Both the position numbers and the translations under genes were made by a program. 64,000 bases of DNA from Lentilactobacillus rapi DSM 19907 = JCM 15042 (lineage in GTDB: Bacteria > Bacillota > Bacilli > Lactobacillales > Lactobacillaceae): the NCBI RefSeq assembly GCF_001436255.1, contig NZ_AZEI01000076.1, positions 124,001-188,000 of the forward strand, in the 5' to 3' direction. Positions 37,536-52,468 of this stretch are shown piece by piece; within the stretch, counting starts at the first letter, position 1, and each line of letters starts with the position of its first letter. The notes beneath the pieces were generated by a model. The model had not been told where the DNA came from and did not search any database. It saw only the letters and a program-made list of their open reading frames with translations.

Positions 37536-38066
37536 TCAATTTAAGAGGCGATTTTTAATCATCTCAAATGATTTTGAATTCATAATGAAGTATAAAATTG
37601 CGATTTCAATTGGAGTGATAATAACTTCCTTCAATGTTCTCATTGGTAGCAACCCGAAGAAAGGCGTTTTGTATAGAACCGTTAGCCAAAATGTATTCAA
37701 AACCGCATTCACAAGGACAGCAATAATCAGTTGAGACACAATAACGCGTTTCCAAGTGATTTCCTTGTTATAGAAGAAGAAACCATAAATGGCCGCTCCC
37801 AAAATAGCAGAAACCGTGAAACCCGGAAAGTATGGACTGCCAGAAATAAGCGTCCCAATAATATCACCCAATGCAGCAGTCGTCGAAGACCACAGTGGTC
37901 CATATAAGTAACTGGTGATTGCAACTACGATAAAGCCAAAGCTCAGTCTCATAAATTGGGTTCCAACCGTAAATCGACCCAGTATCAGTGCAAGTGCCAT
38001 TAAGACACCTAACACGACAACATCTAATGTTCTGAGCTTCCTAAAACCTAGTGATAATGACTTCAT
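37536..38066 (-). CDS. folT: Folate ECF transporter S component FolT
   Basis: A membrane substrate-binding subunit of an energy-coupling factor transporter that imports folate, working with the shared EcfA-EcfA'-EcfT module encoded elsewhere. It has 176 residues and about six hydrophobic segments, with the typical first helix VVVLGVLMALALILGRF. The start at ATG 38066 follows GAGGAGATG, which is in a possible sequestering hairpin; a longer start at 38099 lies inside this control region. A THF riboswitch directly upstream supports folate as the substrate. Confidence 0.92.
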   Translation of the reverse strand: MKSLSLGFRKLRTLDVVVLGVLMALALILGRFTVGTQFMRLSFGFIVVAITSYLYGPLWSSTTAALGDIIGTLISGSPYFPGFTVSAILGAAIYGFFFYNKEITWKRVIVSQLIIAVLVNAVLNTFWLTVLYKTPFFGLLPMRTLKEVIITPIEIAILYFIMNSKSFEMIKNRLLN

Positions 38067-38077
38067 AATGCTGACAT

Positions 38078-38127
38078 CTCCTCTAAAGGAGCTCACCACT
38101 ATTTAGAATGTCTAAATAAGCTGGTGA
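38078..38127 (-). promoter_or_regulatory. Expression platform of the folT riboswitch
   Basis: Reading on the minus strand, TCACCA plus CTATTTAG-type sequences form a strong hairpin (38,093-38,127), then CTCCT pairs with AGGAG (38,078-38,091), which would hide the folT ribosome binding site. This points to control of translation. No T run follows, so transcription termination is unlikely. Confidence 0.5.
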
Positions 38128-38232
38128 ATGCGGAAACAACACCGCAGTTAAAGAACAAGTCGAAGCTCTTTAGCTTTCGTTCGAAGTTCACATTCCGTTC
38201 CTTCGACACTTAACGCATTGAATCCTACCCCA
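38125..38232 (-). ncRNA. Tetrahydrofolate riboswitch (THF-I aptamer)
   Basis: On the minus strand the conserved segments of the THF aptamer appear in order: GATTC, GCGTTAAGTGT, GGAATGT, ACGAAAGC and TGCGGTG. Helix P1 can form between GGATTCAA and TTGTTTCC (with a 2x2 internal loop), P2 between TGCG and TGCG, and P3 between CGAAG and CTTCG. The P4 region is longer than usual. Position directly before folT is the classic location. Confidence 0.85.
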
Positions 38233-38340
38233 ATATTTAATTATGTAACTATTAAAGCTTATCATATTCAAATAAAAAAGCAATCACTTAGCCGGATTTT
38301 ACCGAACATTTAGTGATTGTTTCAAATGATTGTTTCGTTT

Positions 38341-41485: not shown

Positions 41486-41494
41486 TTCATGATA

Positions 41495-41542
41495 AAATAG
41501 TGGCTAAACCAGGCAAGTAGAAGTCTGGTTTAGCCACTATTT
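41495..41542. terminator. Bidirectional terminator between rqcH and carB
   Basis: AAATAGTGGCTAAACCAG (41495-41512) and its exact inverted copy (41525-41542) form an 18-pair stem around a 12-base loop, with A and T tails on both strands between convergent genes. Confidence 0.9.
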
Positions 41543-41561
41543 GTTATATACAATTTATTGA

Positions 41562-44060
41562 CTATTCAAAGTTTTTAAATGATAAAGATGCGCCAACTTC
41601 CTGTTTCGTGGTTCCCTCTTGGCGATTAGACTGGAGCTCTTTAAATGGGAACTTGGCAGTCATAATTGAATAACGCTTATGCTCAGCTGGTCGTAACTGT
41701 TCCCGCAAAGATTCCATATCAAGCAATCCAAGATACTTTCTAACTAATACATTAATCCAGTTAACCCCTGTCGTCTTAGTCAAAAAGGCTGTTTCAGTGA
41801 TTCGAACGGGCCGAATCCCTGTGCATGTGTACTCAGATCCTGATTGATCAAATAATACTTGTACGAGACCTTGCCATTCAGTGGGATCCACCGAACTAAT
41901 CGCCTGCTTAATCAATGGCTGTTCATCAGTTTCCCAATGACTCATGGGTTCTTGATAATCGTTAATATGATGGAGATCCAGCCGATTGTTATGGTTGAAA
42001 AACGAAAGCGTCGTAACAGGAATGATTTCGTCGTCCTGAATAAACAAATCAACTGCCGCTGTGGCTTCTTGTTCCTTGTATACGGCAACTTTTTGATCTG
42101 GCGGTAAAACGACCACATTCAAGCCAGTGAATTGTTTTAACTGTTTTGAAAGATAATGCCGATTCCCTGGTAGGAAAACTACATCAGGCTGATCAACATT
42201 AATAATATTCAAAATATTTCCCAATTGGATCGGCTCAATGTATTGCTTATCACTTAACTGAGGTGTAAGTGAAACTGCATTGGGATTGGTATTCATAATG
42301 ATTGTTTTGTAGCCGGCTTTTTTAAGCGATGTAAGGATTTGAGTCGTGTAATAATCAGCTGCAGAATTGGGTCCTAACTGATTGCCACCTCTTCCAATTA
42401 CTAAGGCTGTTTTGCCGGAAAATGGTTGACTTTCATTTTCAAGTTCATAGCTGCTGTAAAAAATATTGGTTGCTTCTATGAATTCCCCAGCACTTGGTTC
42501 GATTTCTTTATAAGTCACTGGTTGCTTGGTATTTCGATTCATTCGAGTGATTTCAGAAATGTTTACATTCCATAGCTCGGCTAGCATGCCATCACCAAAA
42601 CCGTATTTGTGACCAACCTGAACCGAATGCGGCGACATTGGGTTATTAATCACATAGTCCTGGGCCCGTAACAATTGATTGAGCTTATAGAAATAAAAAC
42701 GATCAATTCGGGTCAGTTCAGATAACTCGTCAACTGAGAAGCCTCTTCTTAGTGCTTCCATTAAGATCAATATTCTGCTGGCCAACGGGTGAATTAATTG
42801 ATTGATCACATCATCGTCATCAACTTTAGACACACTCGGAAGAATATCCCTCGGTGAAAATTGGGAGCTATGCATGGACTTGATAATTGCTTCTTCAACG
42901 GTTCTGCCAATCCCGATTGTCGACCCTACCGATTTCATCAGGGTATTGAGATGTTGATCAACGTCATTGATATCCCGAAATGGCCAGAGTGGAATTCTAA
43001 CCAATACGTGATCCATCGTTGGTTCCATGAATGGAAGATATTTGCTATATTTCGTTGGCAGTTTAATCTCTGTGAAAGTATAGCCTAATTCCAAAAAGCT
43101 TGAAACGTAAGTCAATGGATAACCGGTTGCCTTAGCTGCCAACAAAGTATTTCGAGTAAAAAAAGGGCTAACTTTGGTAACAAAATAATTTGAATCGGTT
43201 CTACTCTGGGCAAATTGGACATGACAAGTTCCCGTCACATTAAGCGCGTCCATAATTCGAAAAGTAGCCGTTCGCAGTGCCTGATATTCTTCGTTAATTA
43301 ATGTCTGGGTTGGGGCAAAAATGATTGAATCACCAGAATGAATTCCAATTGGATCCATGTCTTCCAAACCAGTAATCAACATTTTGTTCCCGTTGGTATC
43401 CCGGACACCAACCATTTCAATTTCTTTATAGCCAACAATACTTTGTTCAATCGAACAGCGTTTAATATAAGTTCGTTTAAAGCTCACGTCTAGGGCATCT
43501 TCTAGTTCATCGGTATTGTTACAAATGAACCGGCTGGTATCATGGCTAGCTGAAATTGGCTTTACAATAACCGGGAAACCGACTTCGCGGACAAAATCCA
43601 TTGCTTCACTATCGTCAGCGACAATTTTGGAAGCAATCACTTTCTCACTGATTTCGGTCAGCAAATCTCGTAATTTCTGATTATCGATGACTTTGCGCAA
43701 ATCTGCTGGCTTAATGCCAAGCAATGTCACGTTATTGGCGCTTAACACGCCACTTTCTGACAACTGCCAGGCAATTTGCATTGCATTTAAACCACCCGTC
43801 GTGGCCATAATTGCATCCGGCTGTTCCTTCTCAATAATGTTCACAACATTTTTGAAATTGACCTGCTGAACATAAACGTTGGCAGGCTGAATCTCTTCAC
43901 TAGTAACCGAGAACGGGTTATCATCGACATAAATAATTTGAGCACCCGTTTTTCGCAGGGCAATTAATCGCTCAAAAGCGGCCGCGTCGAGCTCATTTTC
44001 GTGACCAATACTTGTTGGGCCACCACCTAGTAATAGGACTTTATTAATATCTATTGCCAT
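41562..44060 (-). CDS. carB: Shortened carbamoyl-phosphate synthase large subunit-like protein, probable pseudoenzyme
   Basis: An 832-residue protein with the CarB fold order, against about 1060 in working enzymes. Residues 1-400 match the first ATP-grasp half, 400-545 the oligomerisation domain, and 545-832 a shrunken second half; the C-terminal regulatory domain is gone. In the first half the glycine-rich ATP loop is SASHDTSR, and of the metal ligands Gln282 remains, but the Glu and Asn expected in VIEMNP are Lys296 and Ser298. The GIHSGDS loop remains. The frame is intact and overlaps carA by 17 bases. Likely non-catalytic; function unknown. Confidence 0.85.
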   Translation of the reverse strand: MAIDINKVLLLGGGPTSIGHENELDAAAFERLIALRKTGAQIIYVDDNPFSVTSEEIQPANVYVQQVNFKNVVNIIEKEQPDAIMATTGGLNAMQIAWQLSESGVLSANNVTLLGIKPADLRKVIDNQKLRDLLTEISEKVIASKIVADDSEAMDFVREVGFPVIVKPISASHDTSRFICNNTDELEDALDVSFKRTYIKRCSIEQSIVGYKEIEMVGVRDTNGNKMLITGLEDMDPIGIHSGDSIIFAPTQTLINEEYQALRTATFRIMDALNVTGTCHVQFAQSRTDSNYFVTKVSPFFTRNTLLAAKATGYPLTYVSSFLELGYTFTEIKLPTKYSKYLPFMEPTMDHVLVRIPLWPFRDINDVDQHLNTLMKSVGSTIGIGRTVEEAIIKSMHSSQFSPRDILPSVSKVDDDDVINQLIHPLASRILILMEALRRGFSVDELSELTRIDRFYFYKLNQLLRAQDYVINNPMSPHSVQVGHKYGFGDGMLAELWNVNISEITRMNRNTKQPVTYKEIEPSAGEFIEATNIFYSSYELENESQPFSGKTALVIGRGGNQLGPNSAADYYTTQILTSLKKAGYKTIIMNTNPNAVSLTPQLSDKQYIEPIQLGNILNIINVDQPDVVFLPGNRHYLSKQLKQFTGLNVVVLPPDQKVAVYKEQEATAAVDLFIQDDEIIPVTTLSFFNHNNRLDLHHINDYQEPMSHWETDEQPLIKQAISSVDPTEWQGLVQVLFDQSGSEYTCTGIRPVRITETAFLTKTTGVNWINVLVRKYLGLLDMESLREQLRPAEHKRYSIMTAKFPFKELQSNRQEGTTKQEVGASLSFKNFE

Positions 44061-45135
44061 TGTCGACCCTTCTTCTTTCCATTATTTCCGTGAAGTCATC
44101 AAACAAGCCAACACTATCTTTAGGTCCCGGTGCCCCATCAGGTGAAAATTGAACTGAAAAGGCCGGAAAATCACGGTGACGAAGCCCCTGAACCGTACCA
44201 TTAACTAAATCAATGTGGGTAATAAATAATTTCGCGTGATCAATTGACTTGGGATCAACCGCATATCCTTGTTCCTGACCGGAATAAAAGATTTCATTTG
44301 TGATAATTTCACGAATTGGATGGTTGGCCCCGTGATGCTCAACTCTAAGTTGGTAAACACTGGCATCGTTTGCCAAAGCGAATAATTCATGACCCAACCC
44401 AATAGCAAATAACGGCGCTTGGCTTTGAACTTCTTCAATCATCTTTAGGACTGACTGGGGCAAATTCGATGGTGCCCCAGGGCCAGTTGATAAAACAATC
44501 CCATCTGGATCTAAATCAAGGATCATTTCACTGGATGCATTCCAAGGCACAACCGTTACGTTACAATTTCGACGGGATAATTCACGCAAAATTCCACTTT
44601 TGAGGCCGAAATCAACGACAACAACGTTATCCCCCTCATCAGGATTGGGATAAGGTTTCGGTGTTGCAACTTGGGCGACTTGTTGATTCGTTAAAACAGT
44701 GGCATGCAGCTGATCGAATGCATGATCATCCGCCACGTCAACAATGCTGGCTTTCATATTACCGTATTTCTGGAGTCGGTGACGAATTTCACGGGTATCT
44801 ACATCATAAATACCGGGAATCTTATGCTGTTTCAAATAACGATCCAACGAAATTCGTTTAAAGTGGTCAGTTGCCAGATTCTCATATTCACGAACAATCA
44901 CGCCTTTAGCAGACGGCAAAATGGACTCGTACGCATTTTGGTCGAGTCCGGTATTACCAATTGATGATTGGGTAAAAACAATTATTTGGTTGTGGTAAAT
45001 TTGGTTGGAGATGATTTCCTGGTAGCCATTCATTGTTGAATTGGCAACCAGTTCTCCAGTTGTTGTCGCTAATGAACCGAATGCCTTACCAGGGTACGCA
45101 GATCCATCTTCTAATATCAAATATCTTTGCGTCAT
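44044..45135 (-). CDS. carA: Carbamoyl-phosphate synthase small subunit-like protein without catalytic triad
   Basis: A 363-residue CarA homologue. The N-terminal CPSase domain (1-150) retains LILEDGSAYPGKAFG, NGYQE and DVDTREI. The C-terminal glutamine amidotransferase domain (170-355) keeps its fold motifs but all three catalytic residues are replaced: Gly246 stands at the nucleophilic Cys (AIGLGHE, usually GICLGHQ), and Ser331 and Asp333 stand at His and Glu (QFSPDG, usually QYHPEA). It therefore cannot release ammonia from glutamine in the usual way. It begins 22 bases after pyrR with GGGGAG and overlaps carB. Confidence 0.88.
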   Translation of the reverse strand: MTQRYLILEDGSAYPGKAFGSLATTTGELVANSTMNGYQEIISNQIYHNQIIVFTQSSIGNTGLDQNAYESILPSAKGVIVREYENLATDHFKRISLDRYLKQHKIPGIYDVDTREIRHRLQKYGNMKASIVDVADDHAFDQLHATVLTNQQVAQVATPKPYPNPDEGDNVVVVDFGLKSGILRELSRRNCNVTVVPWNASSEMILDLDPDGIVLSTGPGAPSNLPQSVLKMIEEVQSQAPLFAIGLGHELFALANDASVYQLRVEHHGANHPIREIITNEIFYSGQEQGYAVDPKSIDHAKLFITHIDLVNGTVQGLRHRDFPAFSVQFSPDGAPGPKDSVGLFDDFTEIMERRRVDNGNRY

Positions 45136-45157
45136 GCTGACTCCCCATTACTAAGTA

Positions 45158-45694
45158 TCATTTGATGAGTTCAACAGCATCTTTATCATCAATTTCCGAT
45201 ACGTATACTTTGATTTGCTCTTTTTGTGAACTTGGAATATTTTTACCCACAAAGTCGGCGCGAATTGGCAATTCACGATGACCGCGGTCGACTAAAACTG
45301 CGAGATTAATACTCTTAGGCCTGCCAAGGTCCATAACGGCCGAAAGAGCGGCGCGAACGGTTCTGCCTGTATATAAAACATCATCGACTAGAATCACCCG
45401 TTTGCCCTCAATTGAAAAATCAATCTTATTATTGGACATTTTGACGTCGATACTCATTGAATCGTGTTCAATATCGTCCCGATAATTCGTGATATCGAGT
45501 TCACCCACTGGGATGGTGACATTTTCTAATTGTTGCAGCCGGTCGGCAATCCGATTGGCGAGAAAAATCCCCCGCGTTTTGATCCCAATGAGGACGAGGT
45601 CTTCAACACCCTTGTTTTTTTCAACGATTTCATATGTGATCCGGGTTAAAGCACGTTGCATCGCCATTTTGTCTAAAATAATTTTTCCCATCAT
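45158..45694 (-). CDS. pyrR: PyrR bifunctional pyrimidine regulator / uracil phosphoribosyltransferase
   Basis: PyrR binds UMP and attenuator RNA to switch off pyrimidine genes and can make UMP from uracil and PRPP. It has 178 residues. The PRPP loop is [31 protein letters not shown] and GKNIPSS are typical. At the position of the RNA-binding His22 of Bacillus subtilis PyrR the sequence has Tyr (RITYEIVEK). ATG 45694 follows GGAGC; TTG 45697 and ATG 45691 are also in frame. It has its own consensus promoter and leads pyrR-carA-carB rather than a full pyr operon, so it may be a second PyrR copy. Confidence 0.93.
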
Positions 45695-45750
45695 CAAGTG
45701 CTCCTTAAATTAGTGTAAGGTTTTATAAACCGAAAAAGCATGTTAGTTTC

Positions 45751-45779
45751 AGAATATGAGAGCTGAGCCAACTTGTCAA
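45751..45779 (-). promoter_or_regulatory. Promoter for pyrR-carA-carB
   Basis: On the minus strand a consensus TTGACA (45774-45779), 17 bases and TATTCT (45751-45756). The -35 overlaps the end of rluD. The leader of about 50 bases shows no attenuator hairpin with T run. Confidence 0.75.
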
Positions 45780-52076: not shown

Positions 52077-52468
52077 TGGTGTAAATCCCTATAAGCCATG
52101 TTTTGTGCTTACTTTATCCCAGGACGATAAAGCAAGTAGTAATCATCTATCTGAGAAGTCACAAGGACCTCTCCCCCACACTTGGTTCATTTACCGTGTG
52201 TGAAGCTCCCCTACCAAAGTTTGGGTTTCCCGCTCGAGGGGTTTACCGCGTTCCATCAACATAGTTTCCTACATTGTTCGTCACTGTGGCACCTTAGGGA
52301 ACAAACAGCATAGCAAAGCCTTAGCTGCTGATTCCGCCGTAACTCAATTAAGAGTCCCCCGGCTTATTTTTTCACCGAGCACGAACACTACAGGCATCTC
52401 AGCCTGTGCGAGAATGGACTTTCCTCAGCCGTAATAATACGACCGCAATTACTCAGGATTTACACCAG
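52077..52468 (-). ncRNA. rnpB: RNase P RNA, bacterial class B
   Basis: The catalytic RNA that matures tRNA 5' ends. On the minus strand the 5' end GGTGTAAATCC pairs with the 3' end GGGATTTACACC (helix P1). The universal GAGGAAAGTCC element, CGGTAAACCCC and the late GTGGGGGAGAGG-type and GGATAAAG segments are present in order. About 390 bases, as for Firmicutes class B. It occupies the gap between ypsC and gpsB, its usual location. Ends are approximate. Confidence 0.95.

Follow-up and report, generated by a model that had tools for sequence, protein, structure and literature searches.

A carbamoyl-phosphate synthase pair beside pyrR in Lactobacillaceae, conserved with predicted loss of its catalytic sites

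Organization of the locus

The DNA analysed is a stretch of 64,000 nucleotides from Lentilactobacillus rapi DSM 19907 = JCM 15042 (contig NZ_AZEI01000076.1, positions 124,001 to 188,000), hereafter the window, whose minus strand carries a three-gene operon (41562-45697) composed of pyrR and of the genes for the small and large chains of a carbamoyl-phosphate synthase (CPS) predicted to be inactive. These two genes are designated carA* and carB* and, together, the inactive pair. The operon lies after rluD and is convergent with fbpA. Its first gene, in the window as in the relatives, is pyrR (45158..45697, minus strand), which has an intact phosphoribosyl pyrophosphate (PRPP) loop sequence and scores 268 bits with model NF003548 against a cut-off of 218; its conserved start is probably the ATG at 45691. 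It is followed by carA* (44044..45135, minus strand), encoding a small chain of 363 aa without the catalytic Cys and His, and by carB* (41562..44060, minus strand), encoding a large chain of 832 aa. As the original prediction had it, both frames are intact and overlap by 17 bases (44044-44060).

The same prediction had assigned a consensus promoter, shared with pyrR, to the two car genes. A promoter-like site (TTGACA, 17 bp, TATTCT; 45751..45779, minus strand) does precede pyrR, its -35 box overlapping the rluD stop codon, and it was the best of the 13 consensus matches in a scan of the window; the scan as a whole, however, did no better than shuffled sequences (mean of 14.2 matches). The site is nonetheless common to relatives: TTGACA with a 17-base spacer precedes pyrR in 13 of 17 Lentilactobacillus relatives, the -10 box being TATTCT in ten and TATCCT, TATGCT and TACGCT in one each, while one of the remaining four lacks this arrangement and the stretches of the other three are too short to judge. 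In the pyrR leaders of L. senioris (L027 and L030), a G+C-rich hairpin followed by Ts occupies roughly bases 65 to 25 ahead of the start; visual inspection of the remaining aligned Lentilactobacillus leaders did not reveal it there, and it could be an attenuator. At the other end of the operon, a long inverted repeat with T runs (41494..41542, no strand assigned), noticed by eye between the ends of carB* and fbpA, is probably a two-way terminator of both genes; a simple scan with a loop limit of 8 did not report it.

Loss of catalytic residues

Alignments with structures in the PDB, together with a 42-row alignment, placed Gly246, Ser331 and Asp333 of CarA* opposite Cys269, His353 and Glu355 of the E. 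coli small chain, so that the triad expected of a glutamine-dependent CPS (Enzyme Commission number EC 6.3.5.5) is absent. The original prediction, which read all three residues as losses, was right about their identity and about Cys and His, but Asp at the Glu355 position is shared with seven of the eight live Lactobacillaceae copies and thus means little on its own. The real case for a dead glutaminase is made by the Cys and His losses together with changes at positions S47, Q273 and N311 (E. coli numbering), which we take to be residues of the glutamine site. That CarA* might belong to a normal, functional CPS and have been misaligned is barely conceivable: the protein does pass the cut-offs of two NCBIfam CPS small-chain models (406 against 221 and 347 against 307), but comparison with solved structures and with the eight live copies revealed no alternative Cys or His at these positions. 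An AlphaFold2 monomer model of CarA* had a predicted local distance difference test score (pLDDT) of 77.7 and a predicted template modelling score (pTM) of 0.56, weaker than that of CarB*. Its best structural matches were CarA chains (Z 27.1), with a root mean square deviation (rmsd) of 16 Å over the whole chain; owing to this rmsd and the low pTM, how its domains pack together is uncertain.

The large chain also departs from the two-ATP-grasp-site plan of EC 6.3.5.5, with its metal ligands and glycine-rich loops. Relative to E. coli CarB, the first site of CarB* has K296 for E299, S298 for N301, F300 for R303 and N127 for R129, and the glycine-rich loop is gone (Gly175/Gly176 replaced by His/Asp), while R715, G721 and G722 of the second site fall opposite gaps. 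E215, G241, H243 and Q285 of the first site are retained. Domains A and B are full size, domain C is compressed and the regulatory domain D is absent, the match to E. coli CarB stopping at residue 923-925; the alignments and the structural model thus bear out what had been predicted for the ATP loop, Lys296 and Ser298, the compressed second half and the missing regulatory domain. Scores with curated large-chain models were under the cut-offs (542 against 1027 and 515 against 599). As modelled with AlphaFold2 (monomer; mean pLDDT 87.9, pTM 0.89), CarB* keeps the CPS fold, superposing on E. coli CarB (1a9x) with Z 43.8 and 3.4 Å over 801 aligned residues.

The same pattern recurs among 29 short CarB* forms, in which the E299 position is Lys in 24, Arg in three, Ser in one and Glu in one (genus g35; genera are cited by working labels) and in which R715, G721 and G722 are gaps throughout (29/29). 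E215 and G241 are each kept in 28 of them and H243 in 26. Such retention, along with the prevalence of Lys or Arg at E299 (27/29), could be taken to favour a pair that is still catalytic, binding or turning over ATP with Lys in place of Glu299, or having acquired a new ammonia- or acyl-phosphate-dependent reaction. This is improbable: the window protein is altered at R129, R303, the Gly loop and the metal ligands E299 and N301, the second-site residues fall opposite gaps, and a Gly stands at the CarA nucleophile. From these residues, we infer that CarA* and CarB* are catalytically inactive.

Selection among close relatives

A scan of named genomes retrieved 17 loci, all from Lentilactobacillus (15 named species, L. 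senioris twice, and one further species), the nearest named relative being L. dabitei with a CarB* 99% identical to that of the window. All 17 have pyrR, carA* and carB* in the same order with open frames. Gly246, Asp333, Lys296 and Ser298 do not vary in the resulting 18 rows, which include the window; the His353 position is occupied by Ser in 16 and by Leu in two.

Over all pairs, the median proportion of nonsynonymous differences (pN) was 0.032 for PyrR, 0.080 for CarA* and 0.150 for CarB*, compared with 0.175, 0.146 and 0.118 for the flanking RluD, FbpA and Fhs (17 rows each for FbpA and Fhs, with the Fhs and RluD frames split in L029). By this measure, constraint on CarA* exceeds that on any of the three flanking genes, and constraint on CarB* is similar to that on FbpA. 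In the L. farraginis stretch L029 (1207-3959), the pyrR-carA*-carB* frames are open and those of Fhs and RluD broken, through either sequencing error or a real change. Median ratios of nonsynonymous to synonymous substitution (dN/dS) were 0.012, 0.031 and 0.031 for PyrR, CarA* and CarB*, with highest values of 0.087, 0.051 and 0.122; these ratios rest on few pairs (54, 32 and 4 usable of 153, respectively) because synonymous sites were saturated in most. They lie far below 1, and no frameshift was present in the 17 nearest named relatives, two of the points on which the original prediction could have failed. Judged from these sequence comparisons, carA* and carB* are under purifying selection.

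A decaying relic without function would be expected neither to show a dN/dS near 0.03 nor to keep its frames open in 17 of 17 close relatives and Gly at the nucleophile position in all 99 Cys-less sequences of the wider sample described below; the pair is also kept in small genomes (1.2-1.6 Mb) in which live CPS and aspartate carbamoyltransferase (ATCase) were not found. Some lineages are admittedly badly eroded, notably g10 (CarB of 659 aa, branch length 5.9) and g35 (791 aa), and 13 of 40 genera have a live-type best CarA (one genome checked each). A relic is nevertheless extremely improbable, and we regard this explanation as largely refuted by the dN/dS values and the retention.

Distribution among Lactobacillaceae

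An initial search covered 301 genomes of the family; scores were 738-811 bits in all 15 Lentilactobacillus sampled and 613 or less in other genera. Twenty stretches from 17 genera were then read: 19 (16 genera) contain the inactive pair, in which CarB measures 817-862 aa, and the twentieth (L078, g33) carries a live pyr operon instead. The pair was found between rluD and fbpA across the family, with pyrR directly before it in 15 of the 19 stretches, the exceptions being one from g3 and three from g6. A 22-row profile at E<=1e-168 found matches in 218 of the 397 Lactobacillaceae genomes, representing 20 of the 40 genera; residues were inspected for part of the 218. At the level of the order, 22 of 295 genomes passed, all Lactobacillaceae, although a diverged inactive pair elsewhere could score below the cut-off. 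This cut-off lies near the best live-type match seen (1.1e-164, in g25), and the matches nearest above it that were read (G591, G094 and G073) are Cys-less. It misses some inactive members, namely G026, G028, G035 and G009 as well as full-length forms in g11, g33, g17 and g27. Among 27 genomes inspected, six with weaker matches are likewise Cys-less (g2 twice, g7, g39, g26 and g6); further inactive short forms under the cut-off occur in G026 (g26), g28, g35 and g10, and g11, g33, g17 and g27 have a CarB of full length (1056-1067 aa) whose sites are broken. In the remaining 13 of the 40 genera, one genome was checked in each and its best CarA keeps Cys, though a diverged second pair could go unseen.

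In a set of 120 distinct CarA sequences, in which some genera are oversampled, 99 are without the catalytic Cys, and these have Gly at that position in every case (99/99) and His in none; the His position is occupied by Phe (53), Ser (35), Asp (4), Leu (3), Asn (2), Glu (1) or a gap (1). His is kept in 20 of the 21 Cys-bearing sequences. Taken together, the loss of catalytic residues across orthologs and the intact frames under purifying selection make this, on sequence criteria, a conserved pseudoenzyme. The original prediction had proposed retention for a non-catalytic role, which open frames, family-wide retention, low dN/dS and the uniform Gly strongly support, and the lactobacillar pair very probably does an undescribed job that is not enzymatic. 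No description of an inactive CPS beside pyrR was found in the literature (open PMC papers).

Origin of the inactive pair

Trees group the inactive forms beside the live pyrimidine-type CPS of Lactobacillaceae. In the careful tree, from which three long rows (D_g10, T_g27 and D_g35) were omitted, 27 short forms make up one clade (100/100) and the full-length inactive forms fall between short and live forms. A single origin of all inactive forms received 98 in a quick tree and 79/71 in the careful one, and is thus weakly supported. The full-length pairs of g11 (L182, 2472-6754) and g33 (L185, 1737-6061) stand beside fbpA and have lost His and E299, that of g33 keeping Cys; they apparently represent earlier stages of the same decay. 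The g10 locus (L187, 3048-6558) is extremely eroded, with a carB* product of 659 aa and a PyrR 40% identical to that of the window.

Gene order was informative in two genera, being pyrR-permease-carA-carB-fbpA in g11 and rluD-permease-carA-carB-fbpA in g27, where the permease belongs to the uracil/xanthine family (by Pfam in g11, by motif in g27). We take this order to be that of a shortened Bacillus-type pyr locus, and for this reason the inactive pair is probably the remnant of an ancestral pyr operon at its old site.

Genomes with and without another CPS

The search for a second, complete carAB in the L. rapi genome was successful. The genome has two CarA matches and eight ATP-grasp family matches, two of the latter inside one frame of 1027 codons on contig 36. 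The live-type CarAB lies there (L013, 6713-10842, minus strand; G000:C36), with a CarB of 1022 aa and all the catalytic residues checked kept, and is divergent from pyrB-pyrC, both named by resemblance. A PyrR-site match beside it points towards pyrB and scores 47.5 bits, which does not reach the gathering score (54). This live-type CarAB belongs to a diverged lineage, far from the pyrimidine-type CPS of Lactobacillaceae, and a similar second large chain was not found in the four other Lentilactobacillus genomes tested (G051, G157, G199 and G013). The window PyrR is the only one found in the genome, the other match being a weak relative (24% identity).

A wider set of 35 genomes, chosen rather than random, comprised 32 with a single CarA match in the 301-genome search, plus G013, the L. 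rapi genome and G300; their assemblies are draft or complete, with a stated completeness of 93-100%. In 33 of these genomes the CPS-specific domain PF02787 was matched only once, and the frame that held it was invariably short (820-871 codons); the L. rapi genome had two matches and G300 had three. An ATCase, defined as at least 54% identical to that of G300, was present in seven of the 33 genomes with only the inactive pair; it was not found in the other 26, where matches were at most 33% identical. The pair is retained in genomes of 1.2-1.6 Mb in which neither live CPS nor ATCase was found.

These counts bear on the suggestion, made in the original prediction, that the pair tunes a true CPS encoded elsewhere. 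Regulatory or structural subunits mixing with live CPS chains would suit the retained fold and the live-type copies of L. rapi and G300, but a further CPS large chain was not found in 33 of the 35 genomes. Tuning of a live CPS is therefore ruled out as a general role, and such mixed complexes, though conceivable where live copies occur, are a very improbable explanation overall.

Association with PyrR

PyrR was present in all 35 genomes and, by coordinates, directly before the inactive pair in 27 of the 33 that have this pair only, the six others all belonging to g6. In an unrooted tree, a branch with 100/97 separates PyrRs of the inactive locus (24 rows) from those located elsewhere (six rows, from g38, g3 and g6 only); the rows of g2 and g33 were dropped because the search motif missed them, and the inactive-locus PyrR of g11 sits beside the six. 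PyrR likely still has targets in genomes with only the inactive pair, as suggested by Rfam PyrR sites: matches at E<=1e-3 occurred in 11 of the 13 such genomes searched, and above the gathering score in five of the 13. The genes read after these sites encode uracil-type permeases (four), a cytosine/uracil-type permease, pyrF-pyrE, a nucleoside deoxyribosyltransferase and a major facilitator superfamily (MFS) transporter. At the inactive locus itself, one Rfam match lay in G044 (g5), in which a PyrR site with AGUCCGGAGAGGCU directly precedes pyrR-carA*, at 40.9 bits, below gathering. A strict motif search found PyrR sites at this locus only in G044 (before pyrR) and in g27 (before the permease); it was insensitive and missed several Rfam matches. 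A PyrR leader common to the family was sought at the inactive locus and not found, either in the window or in 17 other stretches.

Proposed role of the pair

Our preferred reading, put forward tentatively and with a little less than even confidence, is that the pair acts as a non-catalytic sensor or adaptor in a PyrR module. CarA* and CarB* would form a complex whose old active sites bind bicarbonate, carbamoyl phosphate or, in the remainder of the first ATP pocket, a nucleotide without turning it over, and the resulting state would be passed on by direct contact to the PyrR-dependent attenuation of genes for pyrimidine uptake and synthesis. A more specific form of this scheme, in which a two-chain CPS has become a catalysis-free metabolite sensor that steers PyrR and makes pyrimidine uptake responsive to CO2/bicarbonate or to nucleotides even without de novo synthesis, is rather unlikely. 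The bicarbonate idea derives from a single statement in PMC3582564, which cites a 2006 paper, that PyrR2 of L. plantarum makes the pyr operon respond to inorganic carbon.

Several observations weigh against a sensor acting through PyrR. The window locus has no PyrR site, whether at the gathering score in the window or, genome-wide, at E<=0.05, and none was found in 17 other inactive-locus stretches from 17 genera. Four stretches of g3 and g6 have the pair without an adjoining pyrR, their PyrR being located elsewhere and grouping with pyr-operon PyrRs. Since R303 is lost, the bicarbonate site is unlikely to have stayed as it was, and with S47, Q273 and N311 changed as well, binding of bicarbonate or glutamine cannot be assumed. 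Finally, the comparison with L. plantarum depends on a deduction about a genus: G300 (g38) alone among 22 genomes has two PyrRs, one beside the inactive pair and one in pyrR-pyrB-pyrC-carA-carB, and g38 is probably Lactiplantibacillus because this order fits that of lp_2704 (pyrR1), lp_2700 (carB) and lp_1782 (pyrR2), as named for L. plantarum in PMC7911632.

Some of these points are shared by a different explanation, which is plausible though doubtful: the pseudo-CPS may have a non-enzymatic job unrelated to PyrR, as a scaffold or in binding RNA or a metabolite, with pyrR adjoining it only because both are remnants of the old pyr operon at its ancestral place. The g3 and g6 pairs without adjacent pyrR and the lack of a PyrR site in the 17 stretches are compatible with it, as are the g11 and g27 loci, which keep a uracil-type permease (and in g11 also pyrR) in the manner of a shortened pyr operon. 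It accounts less readily for the presence of PyrR in 35 of 35 genomes, for the adjacency of pyrR in 15 of 19 stretches and for the placement of inactive-locus PyrRs apart from the six others. The PyrR link of the original prediction is thus upheld in part, by gene order, by the split of PyrR lineages and by the one site in G044, but is weakened by the g3 and g6 pairs.

If the PyrR-dependent sensor exists, it would explain the inorganic-carbon response of PyrR2, for which the pair would be a concrete candidate as a missing partner. More generally, a multi-step enzyme would have lost its catalytic sites and left proteins under strong selection, and a large share of lactobacilli would carry a non-enzymatic pair probably labelled as CPS in databases. 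Such labelling of CarA* as a working enzyme is likely because the window protein passes model cut-offs and 22 of 22 diverse CarA* match models of the glutamine-hydrolysing CPS small chain (per-sequence cut-off results not being listed); genome-scale models may consequently credit CPS to species without a live large chain.

Other features of the window

Two structured RNAs were recognized outside the operon. A tetrahydrofolate (THF) riboswitch (38120-38234, minus strand; Rfam RF01831, 65.3 bits) precedes a gene (37536-38099) for a small membrane protein that resembles the S component of a folate energy-coupling factor (ECF) transporter, and a class B ribonuclease P RNA lies at 52087-52460 (minus strand; Rfam RF00011, 316.5 bits).

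Comparison with known systems

The inactive pair shares with bacterial CarAB or PyrAaAb (E. coli 1A9X and 1JDB) the two-chain make-up, the gene order, the A-C fold of the large chain and the domains of the small chain, but differs in having neither Cys and His nor the first-site metal ligands, ATP loop and domain D, and in its compressed domain C. Human CPS1 has a glutaminase-like domain without Cys and is yet an active synthase; the dead glutaminase part is common to both, whereas the ATP sites, which CPS1 has intact, are broken here too. In some bacteria, an inactive dihydroorotase partners ATCase, likewise a pseudoenzyme kept in the pyrimidine pathway. That protein supports a live enzyme, whereas the inactive CPS pair occurs in 26 genomes where neither live CPS nor ATCase was found.

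At the level of gene order, lspA-rluD-pyrR-(permease)-carA-carB at the inactive locus resembles that of the Bacillus pyr locus, a PyrR-controlled pyr operon. As in PyrR-attenuated pyr operons, pyrR comes first in the window, but no PyrR-binding leader was found before it. The L. plantarum passages of PMC3582564 mention two CPSs and two PyrRs but no inactive third CPS. The arrangement in G300 resembles the pyrR1 and pyrR2 of L. plantarum, one of the two PyrRs standing by the inactive pair and the other heading pyrR-pyrB-pyrC-carA-carB.

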